Shown one piece after another: positions 21,826-43,924 of a DNA stretch of 64,000 bases; the first letter of the stretch is position 1; every line of letters starts with the position of its first letter. Location: assembly GCF_002278135.3 (NCBI RefSeq), contig NZ_CP029425.2, positions 186,001-250,000 of the forward strand, written 5' to 3'. The notes beneath the pieces are model-generated. The model searched no databases, had not been told where the DNA came from, and saw only the letters and a program-made list of their open reading frames with translations. The position numbers and the translations under genes were made by a program. The DNA is from Bradyrhizobium ottawaense (GTDB lineage: Bacteria > Pseudomonadota > Alphaproteobacteria > Rhizobiales > Xanthobacteraceae).

Positions 21826-21996
21826 TTGAATTGTTCACCCGTTAGACCACGGCCCATCCCGCAGCCTCAGGAGTAGCGGACATTCGTTGGAATGTGCTGA
21901 GGACAGAAGCCGGCATTCGAGGCTTAGTGTCGGCGTGGCGTTTACGATTGGTTAGGGCTTGCTCGCCCTCCGGGATCGTTCCCGTATTGTTCTTGC

Positions 21997-22004
21997 GGAG
22001 AAGG
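21997..22004. repeat. Target-site duplication, left copy (GGAGAAGG)
   Basis: The 8 bases GGAGAAGG abut the left inverted repeat and recur at 24814-24821 directly beyond the right inverted repeat, as expected for a DDE transposon insertion. Confidence 0.85.
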
Positions 22005-22030
22005 GGTAATGGGTCCGTTCAATTGTGACG
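22005..22030 (+). repeat. Left terminal inverted repeat of the transposon
   Basis: It starts GGTAATGGGTCC and ends TTGTGACG; all 26 positions match the reverse complement of 24788-24813. Confidence 0.9.
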
Positions 22031-22103
22031 TTTTTGGTCGCCACCTAGCGGATCGCGCGGGGTAGGCGCATATTCTGCATGACCGCTCATGCAGGAGATC
22101 GCC

Positions 22104-22331
22104 GTGGCGAAGCGCCCGACAGACCCCAACCAACTCGCCAAGAAAGTCATCGGTATAGCTACCGGCGAGGAAACAGACGATCATACAAGGGAGAAGGATC
22201 CGGCGGCGGTGGCTCTTGGCCGGCGCGGGGGTCTGAAGGGTGGGAAGGCCCGCGCGGCTAGTCTGTCGCCTGAGCAGCGAAGCGAGATCGCGAGGCGGGC
22301 CGCGCAATCTAGATGGCGGCGCGATTCTTAA
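22104..22331 (+). CDS. Small basic protein of the GRRGGLKGGKARA type, transposon passenger
   Basis: A 75-residue basic protein. It starts MAKRPTDPNQLAKKVIGIA and carries VALGRRGGLKGGKARAASL followed by RSEIARRAAQSRWRR. Proteins of this type are common in Bradyrhizobium and often found in accessory regions; the lysine/arginine- and glycine-rich pattern suggests nucleic-acid binding, but no function is established to my knowledge. I use the GTG at 22104, which has CAGGAGA 6-12 bases before it; an ATG at 22089 lies upstream of that ribosome site. It lies 73 bases inside the left end of the transposon. Confidence 0.75.
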   Translation: MAKRPTDPNQLAKKVIGIATGEETDDHTREKDPAAVALGRRGGLKGGKARAASLSPEQRSEIARRAAQSRWRRDS

Positions 22332-22443
22332 GAGTCTGGAAATAATCGCTTTTTGACTCTGGCGGCTAAATCATTGCGACTCCTAGCGGAATCGCGAAAG
22401 ACAGTTTGACTTCATGGGGGGAAAACAATATAAAAACAAACAA

Positions 22444-22630
22444 GGGGCGGATTTTTCCGCCCCCAGGTTGTCATGATATTCCAACCCTCGGTTGGAGACG
22501 GGTTGCAGCCCTCTCCATTTCTCTGCCGAAGCTCAGGTGGATAGACACGACTTCCTCGATCTTCTCCCGGCGGGACACCCCCGCTGGTTGGTTTCAGAGC
22601 CACACACGGCCACCCGAATCGGGTGGCCGT
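22444..22630 (+). ncRNA. Hairpin-rich stretch inside the transposon, candidate small RNA
   Basis: This gene-free part of the 415-base space between two passenger genes holds a perfect 8-bp hairpin (22444-22463), a bulged stem GGAGA-GGG/CCC-TCTCC (22494-22516), a weaker stem near 22568-22586, and a final 11-bp stem-loop (22606-22630). The density of stems suggests a structured RNA or paired terminators. No known RNA family was recognised. Confidence 0.3.
22606..22630 (+). terminator. Strong stem-loop
   Basis: ACGGCCACCCG and CGGGTGGCCGT form an 11-bp perfect stem with a 3-base loop, followed by TGTCGTTT. It could end transcription from the left passenger gene in either direction. Confidence 0.5.
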
Positions 22631-22746
22631 TGTCGTTTCCGACGCCAGTTCCTTACCATATCTCAGATACAATACAAAGCTCCTGTTGAAAGAATCTTCG
22701 CGGGCAGCTAATACGACCTGTATCAGAACACAGGAGGAACATACTC

Positions 22747-23241
22747 GTGGCCGACAGCGCGCTAGAGAATGCAGAGCGGCGGCGCGATGCTCTTGCCGGC
22801 GAAATCAATGCTCTCCAACAGGAGATCGAGACGAAACGCAAGGAATTGGAACGGGTTAAGCAGTTCATTTCTGACTATATGGCTTTTTCCTCCCCGACTG
22901 GCGAACTGCAATTCACGCTCAAGCCGCCGCCAGCGCCAGTAGCCAAGAAGGGCAAGCAAACGGCCAATCCGGATCGAAAAATCGTAGGGGATCATGTCGA
23001 GCGGCTGTTGCGGAAATTGGGGCATCCGATCCCGCGCGATGACTTGTTCATGGCCCTAAAGCTTGATGGCGTCGAGATCGTGGGCAAAGACGCACTGATG
23101 GTGCTCAGCACCATGATGTGGCGGATGCAGGAGCGGTTCGTCCGTATTCCTGGCAAGGGCTATTGGCTGAAATGGGAACCGTGCCCTGCCGTGGGCTACA
23201 TTCCGCCGCCAGCTCCGTTGATGCCACCAGACTACAAATAG
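22747..23241 (+). CDS. Unknown protein with N-terminal coiled coil, transposon passenger
   Basis: A 164-residue protein that I do not recognise. Residues 1-45 form a predicted coiled coil (ENAERRRDALAGEIN, QQEIETKRKELERVKQ). A proline-rich linker (PPPAPVAKKGKQ) follows, then a compact region from about 75 to 135 (IVGDHVERLLRKLGHPIPRDDLFMAL) that looks like a winged helix. The C-terminus is again proline-rich. The GTG start at 22747 has a strong AGGAGGA site. It lies 69 bases upstream of the transposase and could be a DNA-binding accessory or regulator; this is inference. Confidence 0.7.
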   Translation: MADSALENAERRRDALAGEINALQQEIETKRKELERVKQFISDYMAFSSPTGELQFTLKPPPAPVAKKGKQTANPDRKIVGDHVERLLRKLGHPIPRDDLFMALKLDGVEIVGKDALMVLSTMMWRMQERFVRIPGKGYWLKWEPCPAVGYIPPPAPLMPPDYK

Positions 23242-23310
23242 CTCCATACGAATATGGTTAATGGAATCTAATGCTTGACCGCTCAAGCATACGGCCGTAT
23301 ATTCCCTGCC

Positions 23311-24186
23311 ATGAACAAGCTCGACAAAGCCGAACGCGCGAAAATCCTCACGCTTCTCTGTGAAGGGATGAGCATCCGAGCCATCTCGCGCGTGACTGGA
23401 GCCGGCAAGAACACCATCCTTCGCTTGCTCATCGACGCCGGTCGCGCATCGGCAGGGTATCAGGACCGAGTTCTTCGGAACCTGCCCTGCAAGCGAGTGC
23501 AGGTTGATGAGGTCTGGTCTTTTGTGCGGGTGAAAAGCCGCAACGTCGCCAAGGCGAAGGTTGCTTCGGCTGACGCTGGCGATGTCTGGACTTGGACTGC
23601 GCTCTGCGCCGATACCAAGCTGCTGGCGAGCTTCTACGTTTCTGATCGCTCATACGGCGCCGCCAAGGAATTTATCGGCGATCTCAGCGAGCGCCTTTCG
23701 CACCGTATCCAACTGACGAGCGATGGCCATAAAGCTTACGTGCAGGCTGTTGTCGATGCCTTCGGCACCGACATCGACTATTCAATGTTGATAAAGAAGT
23801 ACGGACAGGACTACGGCGGGAGCGCGCCAGAGCGGCGGTATAGCCCCGCCGTGTGCATAGGCATCGAAAAAGATGCAATCATCGGAAGCCCTGACATGGC
23901 GCACGTCAGCACGTCCTTTGTGGAGCGCCAGAACTTGACGATGCGAATGTCAATGCGCCGCTTCACCCGCTTAACCAATGGCTTCTCTAAGAAAATCGAG
24001 AACCATGCTTGTGCAGTCGCATTGCACTCCATGTTCTACAACTTCGTTCGTGTCCATCAGACGCTTAAGACGACACCGGCAAAGGCTGCTGGCGTCACGC
24101 TGCGGGTCTGGACCATGGCGGACATGGTTGACATGATCGAGGCTTGGGAAGCGCGTGAGGCGCGTCAAATACGGCTAGCCGCATAG
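23311..24186 (+). CDS. IS1-family-like DDE transposase
   Basis: A 291-residue single-frame transposase. A helix-turn-helix region covers about residues 8-42 (ILTLLCEGMSIRAISRVTGA). The catalytic triad is visible as Asp66 in VQVDEVWSFV, Asp138 in LTSDGHKAY and Glu205 in FVERQNLTMRM. The sequence after Glu205, RRFTRLTNGFSKKIENH, is the typical IS1-type tail. Classical IS1 uses two frames with a frameshift; here it is one intact frame. The ATG at 23311 is chosen because the HTH then lies at the N-terminus. It is followed by a strong terminator. Confidence 0.9.
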   Translation: MNKLDKAERAKILTLLCEGMSIRAISRVTGAGKNTILRLLIDAGRASAGYQDRVLRNLPCKRVQVDEVWSFVRVKSRNVAKAKVASADAGDVWTWTALCADTKLLASFYVSDRSYGAAKEFIGDLSERLSHRIQLTSDGHKAYVQAVVDAFGTDIDYSMLIKKYGQDYGGSAPERRYSPAVCIGIEKDAIIGSPDMAHVSTSFVERQNLTMRMSMRRFTRLTNGFSKKIENHACAVALHSMFYNFVRVHQTLKTTPAKAAGVTLRVWTMADMVDMIEAWEAREARQIRLAA

Positions 24187-24218
24187 AAAAAGCCCCACCC
24201 GTTAGGGTGAGGCTTTTT
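24187..24218 (+). terminator. Rho-independent terminator after the transposase
   Basis: AAAAAGCCCCACCC and GGGTGAGGCTTTTT pair around a GTTA loop, with T-run on the right and A-run on the left, so it can work on both strands and may also serve the oppositely oriented toxin gene. Confidence 0.85.
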
Positions 24219-24330
24219 GTTTGGGGCCGGTATGCGCCTCGCCGTAAGAAGGCAACACCCTCGCCCCGACAGGTCCCCGAAGGGATAGACCTACAATATG
24301 TCCCCACGAAACTAATTTTTCAATAAGGAA

Positions 24331-24729
24331 CTAGGGGAACCCCAAGGCGTGTTTTAGTCCCTCTTCAACCTTTTTTAGATCGTTCGCATCTAGCGACTCT
24401 CCTGAATAGTTCCCGTGACCTATGAAAACACGGGTTAATCTGGAGTGCGAAACGTTCATTATTGCGGTGCAAACCGCCCAGGTATCCACGGTCAGGGTCT
24501 CATACTTTCCGGCAGCGAAAGGAACGTCAGCCGGGGTAGCGGCGTGGGGCGCAGTCGCGGAAAATGGCACGACCAAACATCGGCCCGGACCAGCTCCGTG
24601 GCGATGATTATAAGACCGAGGCGAAACGACGACCGCCCGTCTAACCTTGTCTATCTCCGGCGAAACTCTCGCCATGTCATAATCACAAATCAGAATGCGG
24701 CCCCGTTCGGGCACAAAATTTATAGGCAT
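24331..24729 (-). CDS. PemK/MazF-family-like toxin (endoribonuclease type), transposon passenger
   Basis: A 132-residue protein matching the PemK/MazF pattern: PERGRILICDYDMA at residues 7-20, a KxRRAVVVS strand near 28-36, CLVVPFSAT near 50-58, and the block VDTWAVCTAIMNVSHSRLTRV near 81-101. Such proteins usually cut mRNA and are held in check by an adjacent antitoxin. No antitoxin-like gene overlaps it: upstream are only 58 bases and the right inverted repeat. Its ATG at 24729 has GGGGGAA before it, and TTGCGT-N18-GATACT on the reverse strand may be its promoter. Confidence 0.72.
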   Translation of the reverse strand: MPINFVPERGRILICDYDMARVSPEIDKVRRAVVVSPRSYNHRHGAGPGRCLVVPFSATAPHAATPADVPFAAGKYETLTVDTWAVCTAIMNVSHSRLTRVFIGHGNYSGESLDANDLKKVEEGLKHALGFP

Positions 24730-24787
24730 ACGATTCCCCCGCGAGCGGAGTATCGGTTGTGCTACCCTCCAAACGCAAGCCTACGTT

Positions 24788-24813
24788 CGTCACAATTGAA
24801 CGGACCCATTACC
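24788..24813 (-). repeat. Right terminal inverted repeat of the transposon
   Basis: This is the exact reverse complement of 22005-22030 over 26 bases. Confidence 0.9.
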
Positions 24814-24821
24814 GGAGAAGG
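24814..24821. repeat. Target-site duplication, right copy (GGAGAAGG)
   Basis: Identical to the 8 bases at 21997-22004 immediately outside the left end. The comM start lies 49 bases further on. Confidence 0.85.
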
Positions 24822-24870
24822 TCCGTCTCTGCTACCCCTAATTGTGCGAGAGGGGCAGGCTGGTTTGAGC

Positions 24871-26409
24871 ATGGTTCAGCGGGTTTCCACCGTCGCCTTC
24901 GAGGGGATCGAGGCCCGTGCGGTCGACGTGCAGGTGCAGGTCGCGCCGGGCCTGCCGGCATTTGCCATCGTCGGCCTGCCGGACAAGGCGGTGTCGGAGG
25001 CGCGCGAGCGGGTGCGCTCGGCGCTGATCGCCTCAGGGTTGGCGCTGCCGGCGCGGCGGATCATCGTCAACCTGGCGCCGGCCGACCTCCCGAAGGAAGG
25101 CAGCCATTACGACCTGCCGATTGCACTAGGCTTGATGGCGGCGATCGGCGCGATCCCGCCGGATGCGCTGACCGGCTTCACCGTGCTCGGCGAGCTCGGC
25201 CTCGACGGCTCGATCGCGCCCGTGGCCGGCGTTCTTCCCGCCGCGTTCGGCGCCAATATGCGCGAGGAAGGGCTGATCTGCCCGGCCTCGTGCGGCTCCG
25301 AAGCGGCATGGGCGAGCCCGGACATCCAGATCATCGCGGCGAGCTCGCTGATCCAGATCGCCAATCACTTCAAGGGCACCCAGGTGCTGTCGCGGCCGTC
25401 ACCGAAGGTGCATGAGCCCGCCGCCTCCACGCTCGACCTGCGCGACATCAAGGGCCAGGAAAGCGCCAAGCGCGCGCTGGAGATCGCGGCCGCCGGCGGG
25501 CATCATTTGCTCATGATCGGGGCGCCCGGCGCCGGCAAATCGATGCTCGCGGCGCGCCTGCCCTCGATCCTGCCGCCGCTGTCACCGAGCGAACTGCTCG
25601 AGGTCTCGATGATCGCCTCCGTTGCCGGCGAAATCGAGGGCGGCGCGCTGACGGCCAAGCGGCCGTTCCGCTCGCCGCATCATTCCGCGAGCATGGCCGC
25701 GCTCACCGGCGGCGGCATGCGCGCAAAGCCCGGCGAGATCTCGCTGGCACATCAGGGCGTGCTGTTCCTCGACGAATTGCCGGAGTTCGATCCGCGCGTG
25801 CTGGATTCGCTCCGGCAGCCGCTGGAGAACGGCGAGGTCGCGGTGTCGCGCGCCAATCATCGCGTCACTTACCCTGCCCGCTTCATGCTGGTCGCGGCGA
25901 TGAATCCGTGCCGCTGCGGCAACGCGTTCGAGCCGGGCTATGCCTGCAAGCGCGGCCGCGTCGACCGCTGCACCGGCGACTACCAGGCGCGCATCTCCGG
26001 CCCGCTGATGGACCGTATCGACCTGCGCATCGAAGTTCCTGCCGTGACCGCAGCCGACTTGATCCTGCCGCCCCCGGCGGAAGGCTCCGCCGAAGTCGCC
26101 GCCCGCGTGGCGGCAGCGCGCGACATCCAGCTCGCGCGTTATGCCGATGCCGGCCTGCCCCGTGTCCGCACCAATGCCGAGGCTCCTGCCTCTGTGCTGG
26201 AGGAGATCGCAAAGCCGGACGCGCAGGGCCAGAAGCTGCTGCGCGACGCCGCCGAGACCATGCGGCTGTCGGCGCGCGGCTATCACCGCGTGCTGCGGGT
26301 GGCGCGCACGCTGGCGGACCTCGATCGCGCCGACAAGATCGGCCGGCTGCATCTCGCCGAAGCGCTGTCCTACCGCGCACTCGCGGAGGATGTGCGCCAG
26401 ATGGCTTGA
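24871..26409 (+). CDS. comM: ComM/YifB-family Mg-chelatase-like AAA+ ATPase
   Basis: A 512-residue YifB/ComM protein, a hexameric helicase-like ATPase that promotes branch migration during natural transformation in other bacteria. The N-terminal Lon-like domain reads MVQRVSTVAFEGIEARAVDV and GLPAFAIVGLPDKAVSEARERV. Walker A is IGAPGAGKSML near 216, Walker B VLFLDELPEF near 299, and a four-Cys zinc block (NPCRCGNAFEPGYACKRG) follows near 347. I use the ATG at 24871; longer frames reach into the transposon. The transposon has separated the gene from its original upstream DNA. Confidence 0.95.
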   Translation: MVQRVSTVAFEGIEARAVDVQVQVAPGLPAFAIVGLPDKAVSEARERVRSALIASGLALPARRIIVNLAPADLPKEGSHYDLPIALGLMAAIGAIPPDALTGFTVLGELGLDGSIAPVAGVLPAAFGANMREEGLICPASCGSEAAWASPDIQIIAASSLIQIANHFKGTQVLSRPSPKVHEPAASTLDLRDIKGQESAKRALEIAAAGGHHLLMIGAPGAGKSMLAARLPSILPPLSPSELLEVSMIASVAGEIEGGALTAKRPFRSPHHSASMAALTGGGMRAKPGEISLAHQGVLFLDELPEFDPRVLDSLRQPLENGEVAVSRANHRVTYPARFMLVAAMNPCRCGNAFEPGYACKRGRVDRCTGDYQARISGPLMDRIDLRIEVPAVTAADLILPPPAEGSAEVAARVAAARDIQLARYADAGLPRVRTNAEAPASVLEEIAKPDAQGQKLLRDAAETMRLSARGYHRVLRVARTLADLDRADKIGRLHLAEALSYRALAEDVRQMA

Positions 26410-43239: not shown

Positions 43240-43924
43240 CCAGCTTCCAGTTCGGATCGCGAGAGGTGACGTCGCGGGCGAAAGTCCAGATGTCGGTGAT
43301 GTCGGCGACCGTGTCGGCGCTGCCGTCGACGATATTGCCGGCCTTGTCTCGGGTGGCCGAGATCATCTGCGAGACGAAGCGAATCGTGAGCTGGGCGGTA
43401 CGGTCGCGCAGCTCGGCGCCGACGAGTTCGGCCTTGTCGATCGAGACGAAGCGGGTCTCGGTCTTCTGCTCGTTCTTCTCGCGTTCCTTGATCGCGGCCT
43501 CGAAGCTGTCATAGACGTCCGAGGACAACAGGTCGCGCAGCGCGCGGCGGTCGCCATTGGCAAAGGCCAGCACGATCATCTCGTAGGCACCGCGGGCGCC
43601 CGAGATGAAATGGCGCGGGTCGAACGTGGCATCCTTGTCGACGATGGCATCCAGGCCCTGCGCAAGCGCGGTGCCCGGCTCGGTCAGGCCCTTCCAGCGA
43701 TCGGAGGGCGGGGTCGGCTCAGCCGTCGGCGCCAGCGGGGCCTGGTCGATCACCTTGCCCGGCATGGTCACGACGTTGTTGTCCTGGGCACCCCCGAGCG
43801 CATTGCGAGCGGCGGTCCGATCGAACGGCGGCCGCTCGTTGCCGGTACGCTGCCCGAGCACGCTGCGCAGCCGCAGAAAGATGAAGACCGCCAGCGCCAG
43901 GAAGATGATGGTGTAGATGTCCAC
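43217..43924 (-). CDS. Tim44-domain protein (TimA-like adaptor)
   Basis: A 235-residue protein with one N-terminal membrane anchor (IYTIIFLALAVFIFLRLRSVL, residues 3-23) and a Tim44-like domain (about 95-233, FISGARGAYEMIVLAFANGD and TRDPNWKLVGTGSAN). The Tim44 fold is shared with mitochondrial import protein Tim44; alphaproteobacterial members are anchored in the inner membrane and proposed as adaptors. It runs into mltA with overlap and is divergent from secB. Confidence 0.9.
   Translation of the reverse strand: MDIYTIIFLALAVFIFLRLRSVLGQRTGNERPPFDRTAARNALGGAQDNNVVTMPGKVIDQAPLAPTAEPTPPSDRWKGLTEPGTALAQGLDAIVDKDATFDPRHFISGARGAYEMIVLAFANGDRRALRDLLSSDVYDSFEAAIKEREKNEQKTETRFVSIDKAELVGAELRDRTAQLTIRFVSQMISATRDKAGNIVDGSADTVADITDIWTFARDVTSRDPNWKLVGTGSAN

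Follow-up and report, generated by a model that had tools for sequence, protein, structure and literature searches.

The 64,000-nucleotide stretch of Bradyrhizobium ottawaense DNA analysed here (hereafter the window) contains an intact, single-copy DDE transposon of 2809 bp (22005-24813), which belongs to a single open reading frame (ORF) family related to IS1. The element lies between a gene that we take to be comM and the putative LexA/SOS box of the comM promoter. Comparison of this copy with its relatives showed statistically that the family inserts far more often than expected at exactly 7 bp from a TTGAC, or -35-like, sequence or beside a LexA-type box, and that the same base position beside comM was reached by distinct lineages. 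We consider it likely that the window element is an intact copy of an IS1-type transposon family that is steered to host promoters. A broader proposal is that an IS1-type family carrying defence and toxin genes evolved register-precise insertion by sigma-70 promoters and LexA operators, in which host transcription complexes or their binding sites serve as landing marks and nearly all members have a dedicated GRRGG small protein as partner; this we believe only a little more readily than we doubt it. Target choice is the new point here; neither the SOS box nor the promoter at the insertion site was mentioned in the initial annotation of this DNA.

Insertions are enriched at fixed distances from TTGAC and LexA-type sequences

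Two sets of elements were compared. For set 1, an alignment of 26 transposases was searched against a single genome of each species, which gave at least 80 loci, and 20 stretches from the genus were added. A transposase match of at least 100 residues was present at 98 loci (the window included); the 72 elements that were delimited form set 1, and 65 of these have exact duplications. Set 2 came from an order-wide search (40 stretches) and comprises 30 elements after one duplicate was dropped, 27 of them with exact duplications.

The patterns GTTC-N7-GTTC and GAAC-N7-GAAC we take to be the alphaproteobacterial LexA/SOS box. A LexA-type box was found within 40 bp of 15 of the 65 set-1 elements, with 0.1 expected from a background of 23 in 14,412 sequence windows. 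In 15/65, too, TTGAC begins at exactly 7 bp from the duplication on one side or both, with 0.09 expected from its frequency of 0.00071 per bp and strand. Identical rules applied to set 2 gave an SOS box in 6/26 and TTGAC at +7 in 6/26 elements, three elements having both (0.04 expected for each rule).

On the right side of the set-1 elements TTGAC occurred 12 times at +7, compared with 0.16 on average for each remaining offset when a further peak at -3 is left aside; on the left side the corresponding mean was 0.12. The peak at -3 on the right side was formed by eight set-1 elements, all eight inserted at dnaE, a gene of the DNA polymerase III alpha type. At dnaE two registers were observed, with TTGAC at -3 or at +7, about 10 bp apart. 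The distance from a LexA-type box to the insertion was 4-7 bp, with four cases at 13-17 bp. A -10-like hexamer was present 16-18 bp past the TTGAC at +7 in 7 of 21 sites, against 3.6% of 1163 background TTGACs. An SOS box or the shorter sequence TTG at +7 was found at 45/65 targets in set 1 and 12/26 in set 2.

The gene adjoining the SOS box in 21 elements was dnaE (11), comM (6), lexA (2) or recA (1), and at the remaining one (locus L073) no dnaE, comM, lexA or recA gene was found. At the TTGAC sites a domain was recognised in 6 of 10 proteins scanned, and the genes that follow these sites are ordinary ones (among them triosephosphate isomerase, HisG and RecO); the ten include two near misses to the strict +7 rule (L085 and L108).

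Distinct lineages reached the same position beside comM

The SOS box at comM lies 4 bp from the target duplication of the window copy, and a box also stands beside comM in the other loci of the genus that were inspected. Three exact GTTC-N7-GTTC patterns occur in the window, and a calculation with 8 fixed bases and two forms of the pattern gives a chance expectation of about two, so this box counts by its recurrence and not alone. A third such pattern, at 43472-43486, is at chance level. At the level of sequence, the GTTC-N7-GTTC box of the comM promoter points to membership of this target gene in the LexA regulon. The element separates comM, whose ATG (24871) is about 50 bp past the right duplication, from this box, and SOS control of comM has likely been lost.

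The duplication was found 4 bp from the comM box in the window copy and at six other loci (L124, L125, L128, L132, L033 and L215), with L124 and L033 inverted. The left end faces the box in the window copy, L125, L128 and L132, and the right end does so in L124, L033 and the dnaE group. The transposase of the window copy is 55-59% identical to those of the L124 comM clade. Repeated use of a site was also seen at recA, where locus L185 of set 2 contains two identical 2795-bp elements head to tail and the same 8 bp three times; these copies were first spanned as one 5598-bp unit and are counted as two elements.

Other variants of the comM site were also noticed. Inserts of 1.5 kb in L216 (genome G043) and 1.4 kb in L217 (G115) divide the region of the comM promoter, and neither had a transposase match or recognisable ends. 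L218 (G003) has an uninterrupted comM site and a second, partial copy downstream.

Targeting compared with other explanations

Random or AT- and intergenic-biased insertion, followed by survival of promoter-side copies because they break no genes, appears unlikely to us. Promoters are intergenic, and intergenic survivors are expected for any element; the 20/65 set-1 and 14/26 set-2 targets that fall outside both the SOS and the TTG +7 rules also fit such a filter. However, a survival filter yields neither a single offset such as the TTGAC peak at +7 nor a tandem pair with the same 8 bp, as at L185. We judge it similarly improbable that SOS-side elements were retained by co-option, with LexA controlling the element genes and moving the element or expressing its cargo upon DNA damage. 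The SOS boxes beside elements of both sets agree with this idea, but either end of the element may face the box, the box-bearing promoter at dnaE is directed into the host gene and not towards the element, and most targets have no SOS box.

We regard it as very unlikely that the insertions are simply old and vertically inherited, so that the recurrence at dnaE and comM would need no targeting. Within the genus, transposases of the dnaE insertions are 84-90% identical and those of four comM insertions 83-93%. The SOS label required at least 10 changes on a tree built from 101 transposases, whereas shuffled labels required 19.1 on average and none of 500 shuffles was as low; SOS siting is therefore partly inherited. 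The high identity and the clustering together mean that the insertions are not all independent. Against descent, the window copy is only 55-59% identical to the comM clade and yet is inserted equally far from the comM box, and L124 stands there in inverse orientation. The empty site was found in at least 121 of 257 genomes of the genus, the SOS label changed at least 10 times on the tree, and insertions with TTGAC at +7 were seen in several phyla and at different genes. The TTG +7 label was scattered through the family (30 changes; 29.6 when shuffled).

Besides the targets outside both rules and the partial inheritance of SOS siting, several further points weigh against promoter steering. The target pattern was spotted in set 1, and set 2, its sole test, comes from the same order and in some cases contributes several loci per genome. 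The delimitation of ends required GGnnnTG and favoured pairs with a duplication. The target statistics cover members of this family alone. The structure model of the transposase had a mean predicted local distance difference test (pLDDT) score of 65, and the predicted fold of the GRRGG protein had no counterpart in the PDB, the sole match being at an expect value (E) of 9.3. Finally, L212, with a transposase 39% identical, has no GRRGG protein and yet stands at the SOS box of lexA. The GRRGG protein is thus not needed for targeting there, which suggests that the target at L212 was chosen by the transposase or a host factor.

For promoter steering we propose that a complex of transposase and target would dock on promoter DNA, either through the sequence itself or through a bound protein, which could be the RNA polymerase sigma factor or LexA. 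The docked complex would then join the element ends at a distance of about one helical turn, and docking of this kind would have placed the window element between the SOS box and comM. The GRRGG protein may act as a DNA-binding or assembly partner of the transposase, and possibly also as a repressor at the two palindromes that precede its own gene and the transposase gene, while cargo such as the PemK-like toxin may help the element to persist. The fixed spacing, the two registers at dnaE and the recurrence at the same base are compatible with docking on promoter DNA. The mark recognised may lie in the base sequence itself, in the sigma factor or in LexA, or may be a lineage-dependent mixture of these.

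The element and its family

The coordinates of the features are listed in Table 1. The 26-bp ends are 100% complementary and begin with GGTAATG, and GGAGAAGG lies on either side. Two matches of such length occurred in 0 of 100 shuffles, and no extra match to the element end was found in the window at up to 3 mismatches. In its own genome (8,589,152 bases, one contig) the element has one copy, and no other element ends were detected there at E 0.001. The initial annotation had described an intact transposon, bigger than IS1, that has perfect ends and a target duplication of 8 bp and contains an IS1-type transposase in a single frame as well as genes outside transposition, all of which our analysis bears out. 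Its list of passengers holds for the PemK-like and coiled-coil genes, which are variable cargo; the GRRGG gene, which it had counted with them, is a core gene of the family.

Table 1. Features of the transposon and of its insertion site (positions in the window)
Feature	Position	Strand	Basis
LexA/SOS box GTTC-N7-GTTC of the comM promoter, putative, alphaproteobacterial type	21978..21992	.	exact pattern
Target duplication GGAGAAGG, 8 bp, left copy	21997..22004	.	
Left terminal inverted repeat, 26 bp, perfect	22005..22030	+	self-comparison
18-bp palindrome TGCATGACCGCTCATGCA ahead of the GRRGG gene, putative operator	22076..22093	.	
GRRGG small protein, core gene, 75 amino acids from GTG	22104..22331 (longest frame 22089-22331)	+	
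Conserved spacer with strong hairpins, ahead of the coiled-coil gene	22340..22746	+	alignment, folding
Coiled-coil cargo protein, 164 amino acids	22747..23241	+	frame list, Pfam
Palindrome TGCTTGACCGCTCAAGCA covering the -35-like TTGAC of the transposase promoter	23272..23289	.	self-comparison, promoter alignment
Single-frame IS1-type DDE transposase, 291 amino acids	23311..24186 (ATG 23311)	+	Pfam, NCBIfam, alignment
PemK/MazF-like toxin, cargo	24331..24729	-	Pfam, E 5.3e-13
Right terminal inverted repeat, 26 bp, perfect	24788..24813	-	self-comparison
Target duplication GGAGAAGG, 8 bp, right copy	24814..24821	.	
Target gene, comM/yifB-like Mg-chelatase-family ATPase (presumed comM)	24871..26409	+	Pfam Mg_chelatase, 4.7e-93 on 24844-26409

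The family was found in several phyla. The order-wide search gave a transposase match at E 1e-20 in 47 of 397 genomes and a phylum-wide sample gave one at E 1e-40 in 14 of 398, while plasmids seldom carry the transposase (8 of 72,556 records at E 1e-30). Set-1 elements measure 2186-4492 bp (median 3246, none under 1300) and single set-2 elements 2320-4708 bp. The shared core consists of two inverted ends of the GGTAGTGnnTCAGTTTGA type, the GRRGG gene and a transposase whose promoter has a conserved TTGAC; on insertion, 8 bp are duplicated. The element, which had been put forward as possibly a new class of cargo-bearing insertion sequence (IS), is no isolated case but belongs to this large family. 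The empty site anticipated for the window copy does exist: a 363-nt query made of both flanks and one GGAGAAGG was matched without interruption in the genus genomes counted above, where the hand count of full 1-363 matches is a lower bound. It had also been expected that the same ends would occur elsewhere with different duplications. The exact 26-bp ends were absent elsewhere in the searched genomes; related ends, such as GGTAGTGGGTCAGTTTGA, are flanked by many different 8-bp duplications.

Short pieces with an end at each side adjoin full elements at three loci (L118:5237-5785, L119:10971-11391 and L035:3598-5170) and look like older, non-autonomous derivatives. The 8-mer at the junction is common to the piece and the full element. 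Because the 8-mer on the outer side differs, these loci are weaker evidence of repeated insertion at the same site.

A GRRGG small protein and an IS1-type transposase form the core

The GRRGG gene was present in 72/72 set-1 elements (weakest E 1.4e-7), in all of them upstream of the transposase on the same strand, and in 29/30 set-2 elements; the copy in L126 looks truncated. In the window the gene probably starts at GTG 22104, which has AGGAG ahead of it, rather than at ATG 22089. Strong matches (E < 1e-15, our threshold, tallied by hand) numbered 39 in 54 whole genomes, 37 of them within 2.5 kb of a transposase match; the two others are G207:C140 and G525:C63. In 17 genomes free of the transposase there were no strong matches and weak ones in four, the latter inside longer frames where a length was given. 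None of the families of Pfam or NCBIfam fits the 40 members scanned. The predicted structure has three helices (pLDDT 87, predicted template modelling score 0.42). A C-terminal GRRGG motif was also seen inside long frames (356-450 amino acids) between the GRRGG and transposase genes (G603:C15, G633:C106, G401:C1, G558:C1 and G395:C17), so some cargo proteins share the motif.

The transposase scored just over the cutoff of Pfam DDE_Tnp_IS1 (25.0 bits; cutoff 24.1). IS1 was also its best family in NCBIfam, at 59.4 bits and under the cutoff of 100. We read Asp66, Asp138 and Glu205, which are invariant in the alignment of 26 relatives, as the putative DDE residues. The predicted fold resembles retroviral integrases and Tn5 transposase (best E 6e-4), and a sequence search found no solved relatives at E 0.1. 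TTGAC was present at -36/-35 of the transposase promoter in 50/72 elements, and a half-site resembling the terminal inverted repeat stood upstream of it in 33/58 (shuffled mean 2.4). In the window element the palindromes ahead of the GRRGG and transposase genes are near-identical. As a shared operator throughout the family they were rejected, a self-match of at least 12 being found in 4/72 elements compared with 4/432 cross pairs.

Cargo genes vary between elements

The PemK-like protein of the window has a homologue in one other of 71 set-1 elements. It belongs to a type II toxin family (PemK/MazF), and no adjacent cognate antitoxin was found: on the strand of the toxin, no frame of at least 50 amino acids begins in the stretch from 24730 to the right end. 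The coiled-coil protein also has a homologue in one other of the 71 elements (L033), and nothing in Pfam or NCBIfam matched it over a curated cutoff. No PADLOC match was found at E 0.001 for the three non-transposase proteins of the window element.

The spacer ahead of the coiled-coil gene has 80% mean column identity with sequences from three genomes of the genus (L113, L115 and L122). There the spacer and the coiled-coil gene recur beside GRRGG-like fragments, and these stretches showed no credible transposase match and no recognisable ends. The unit is possibly a decayed relative or a captured unit, and may include a structured RNA. No known RNA reached the Rfam gathering score in 21900-24900, and no match to the spacer was found on plasmids. 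Directly before the coiled-coil gene, GAACACAGGAGGAAC at 22726-22740 is a likely ribosome-binding site that at the same time fits the LexA-box pattern exactly; all four aligned sequences retain this pattern, with one spacer base different in L122.

Cargo across the family was scanned with 141 frames of at least 110 amino acids taken from the set-1 elements other than the window copy, in one half of 70 and another of 71; since length was the criterion of choice, some of them may not be genes. Pfam identified HTH_3 in at least 24, Peptidase_M78 in at least 17, P63C in at least 6 and PemK in at least 2, both from the half with 71 frames, with HicB, a DNA methylase and others occurring singly among the families listed. 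The PADLOC models listed included PD-Lambda-2_B in at least 16 frames, RmrA in several and single restriction-modification enzymes. Cargo is situated mostly between the GRRGG and transposase genes and often also to the right of the transposase. It is variable, and the annotations are suggestive of frequent toxin-antitoxin or phage-defence-like functions; the defence labels are only suggestive because helix-turn-helix (HTH) and M78 proteins are common outside defence.

Relation to known elements and significance

Members of the IS1 family have GGnnnTG ends and an 8-9-bp duplication, and in the classical form two overlapping frames with a frameshift (InsA/InsB' in IS1) in less than about 1.2 kb. 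The window element agrees with them in its DDE core with the IS1 Pfam domain, the HTH ahead of the catalytic domain, the 8-bp duplication and the ends, where GGnnnTG served as a filter for the relatives. It differs in having one frame, 2809 bp (smallest set-1 relative 2186 bp; 2.2-4.7 kb in the family), the GRRGG and extra genes, no Pfam zinc finger and an NCBIfam IS1 score under the cutoff. The short two-frame layout is not required of single-ORF IS1 groups, and the single-ORF, ISMhu11-type group of IS1 in ISfinder is described with larger sizes. Membership of IS1595 was rejected, its profile scoring 17.3 bits (cutoff 75) compared with 59.4 for IS1.

Passages of PMC11891212, citing Siguier 2009, describe transporter IS (tIS) and passenger-bearing members of the IS1595 family such as ISNha5, and a passage of PMC8101967 gives 8-bp duplications for IS1595. 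The elements described there resemble ours in combining IS-type ends, a transposase and passenger genes, with an 8-bp duplication as in IS1595. As annotated, the window element has IS-type ends, a transposase and genes outside transposition, an anatomy that makes it an IS1-related transporter IS. We know of no tIS with a GRRGG core gene or a promoter register.

As a working likeness, the yeast retrotransposons Ty1 and Ty3 insert near promoters at set positions, guided by contacts with the transcription apparatus; they differ from the present family in element type and host. To our knowledge, few bacterial DDE elements pick their targets by host regulatory sites. We found no literature on promoter- or SOS-box-directed IS1-type elements, which is weak evidence, as coverage of the IS literature was partial.

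If promoter steering is correct, the family would be a natural targeting system that works at a fixed distance from promoters and, in some lineages, by the operators of recA, lexA, dnaE and comM. It would offer defence and toxin cargo a route to spread without gene breakage, and would provide a direct test case linking transposition, transcription and DNA damage. It would also offer a function to seek for the GRRGG proteins, which Pfam and NCBIfam leave unnamed.

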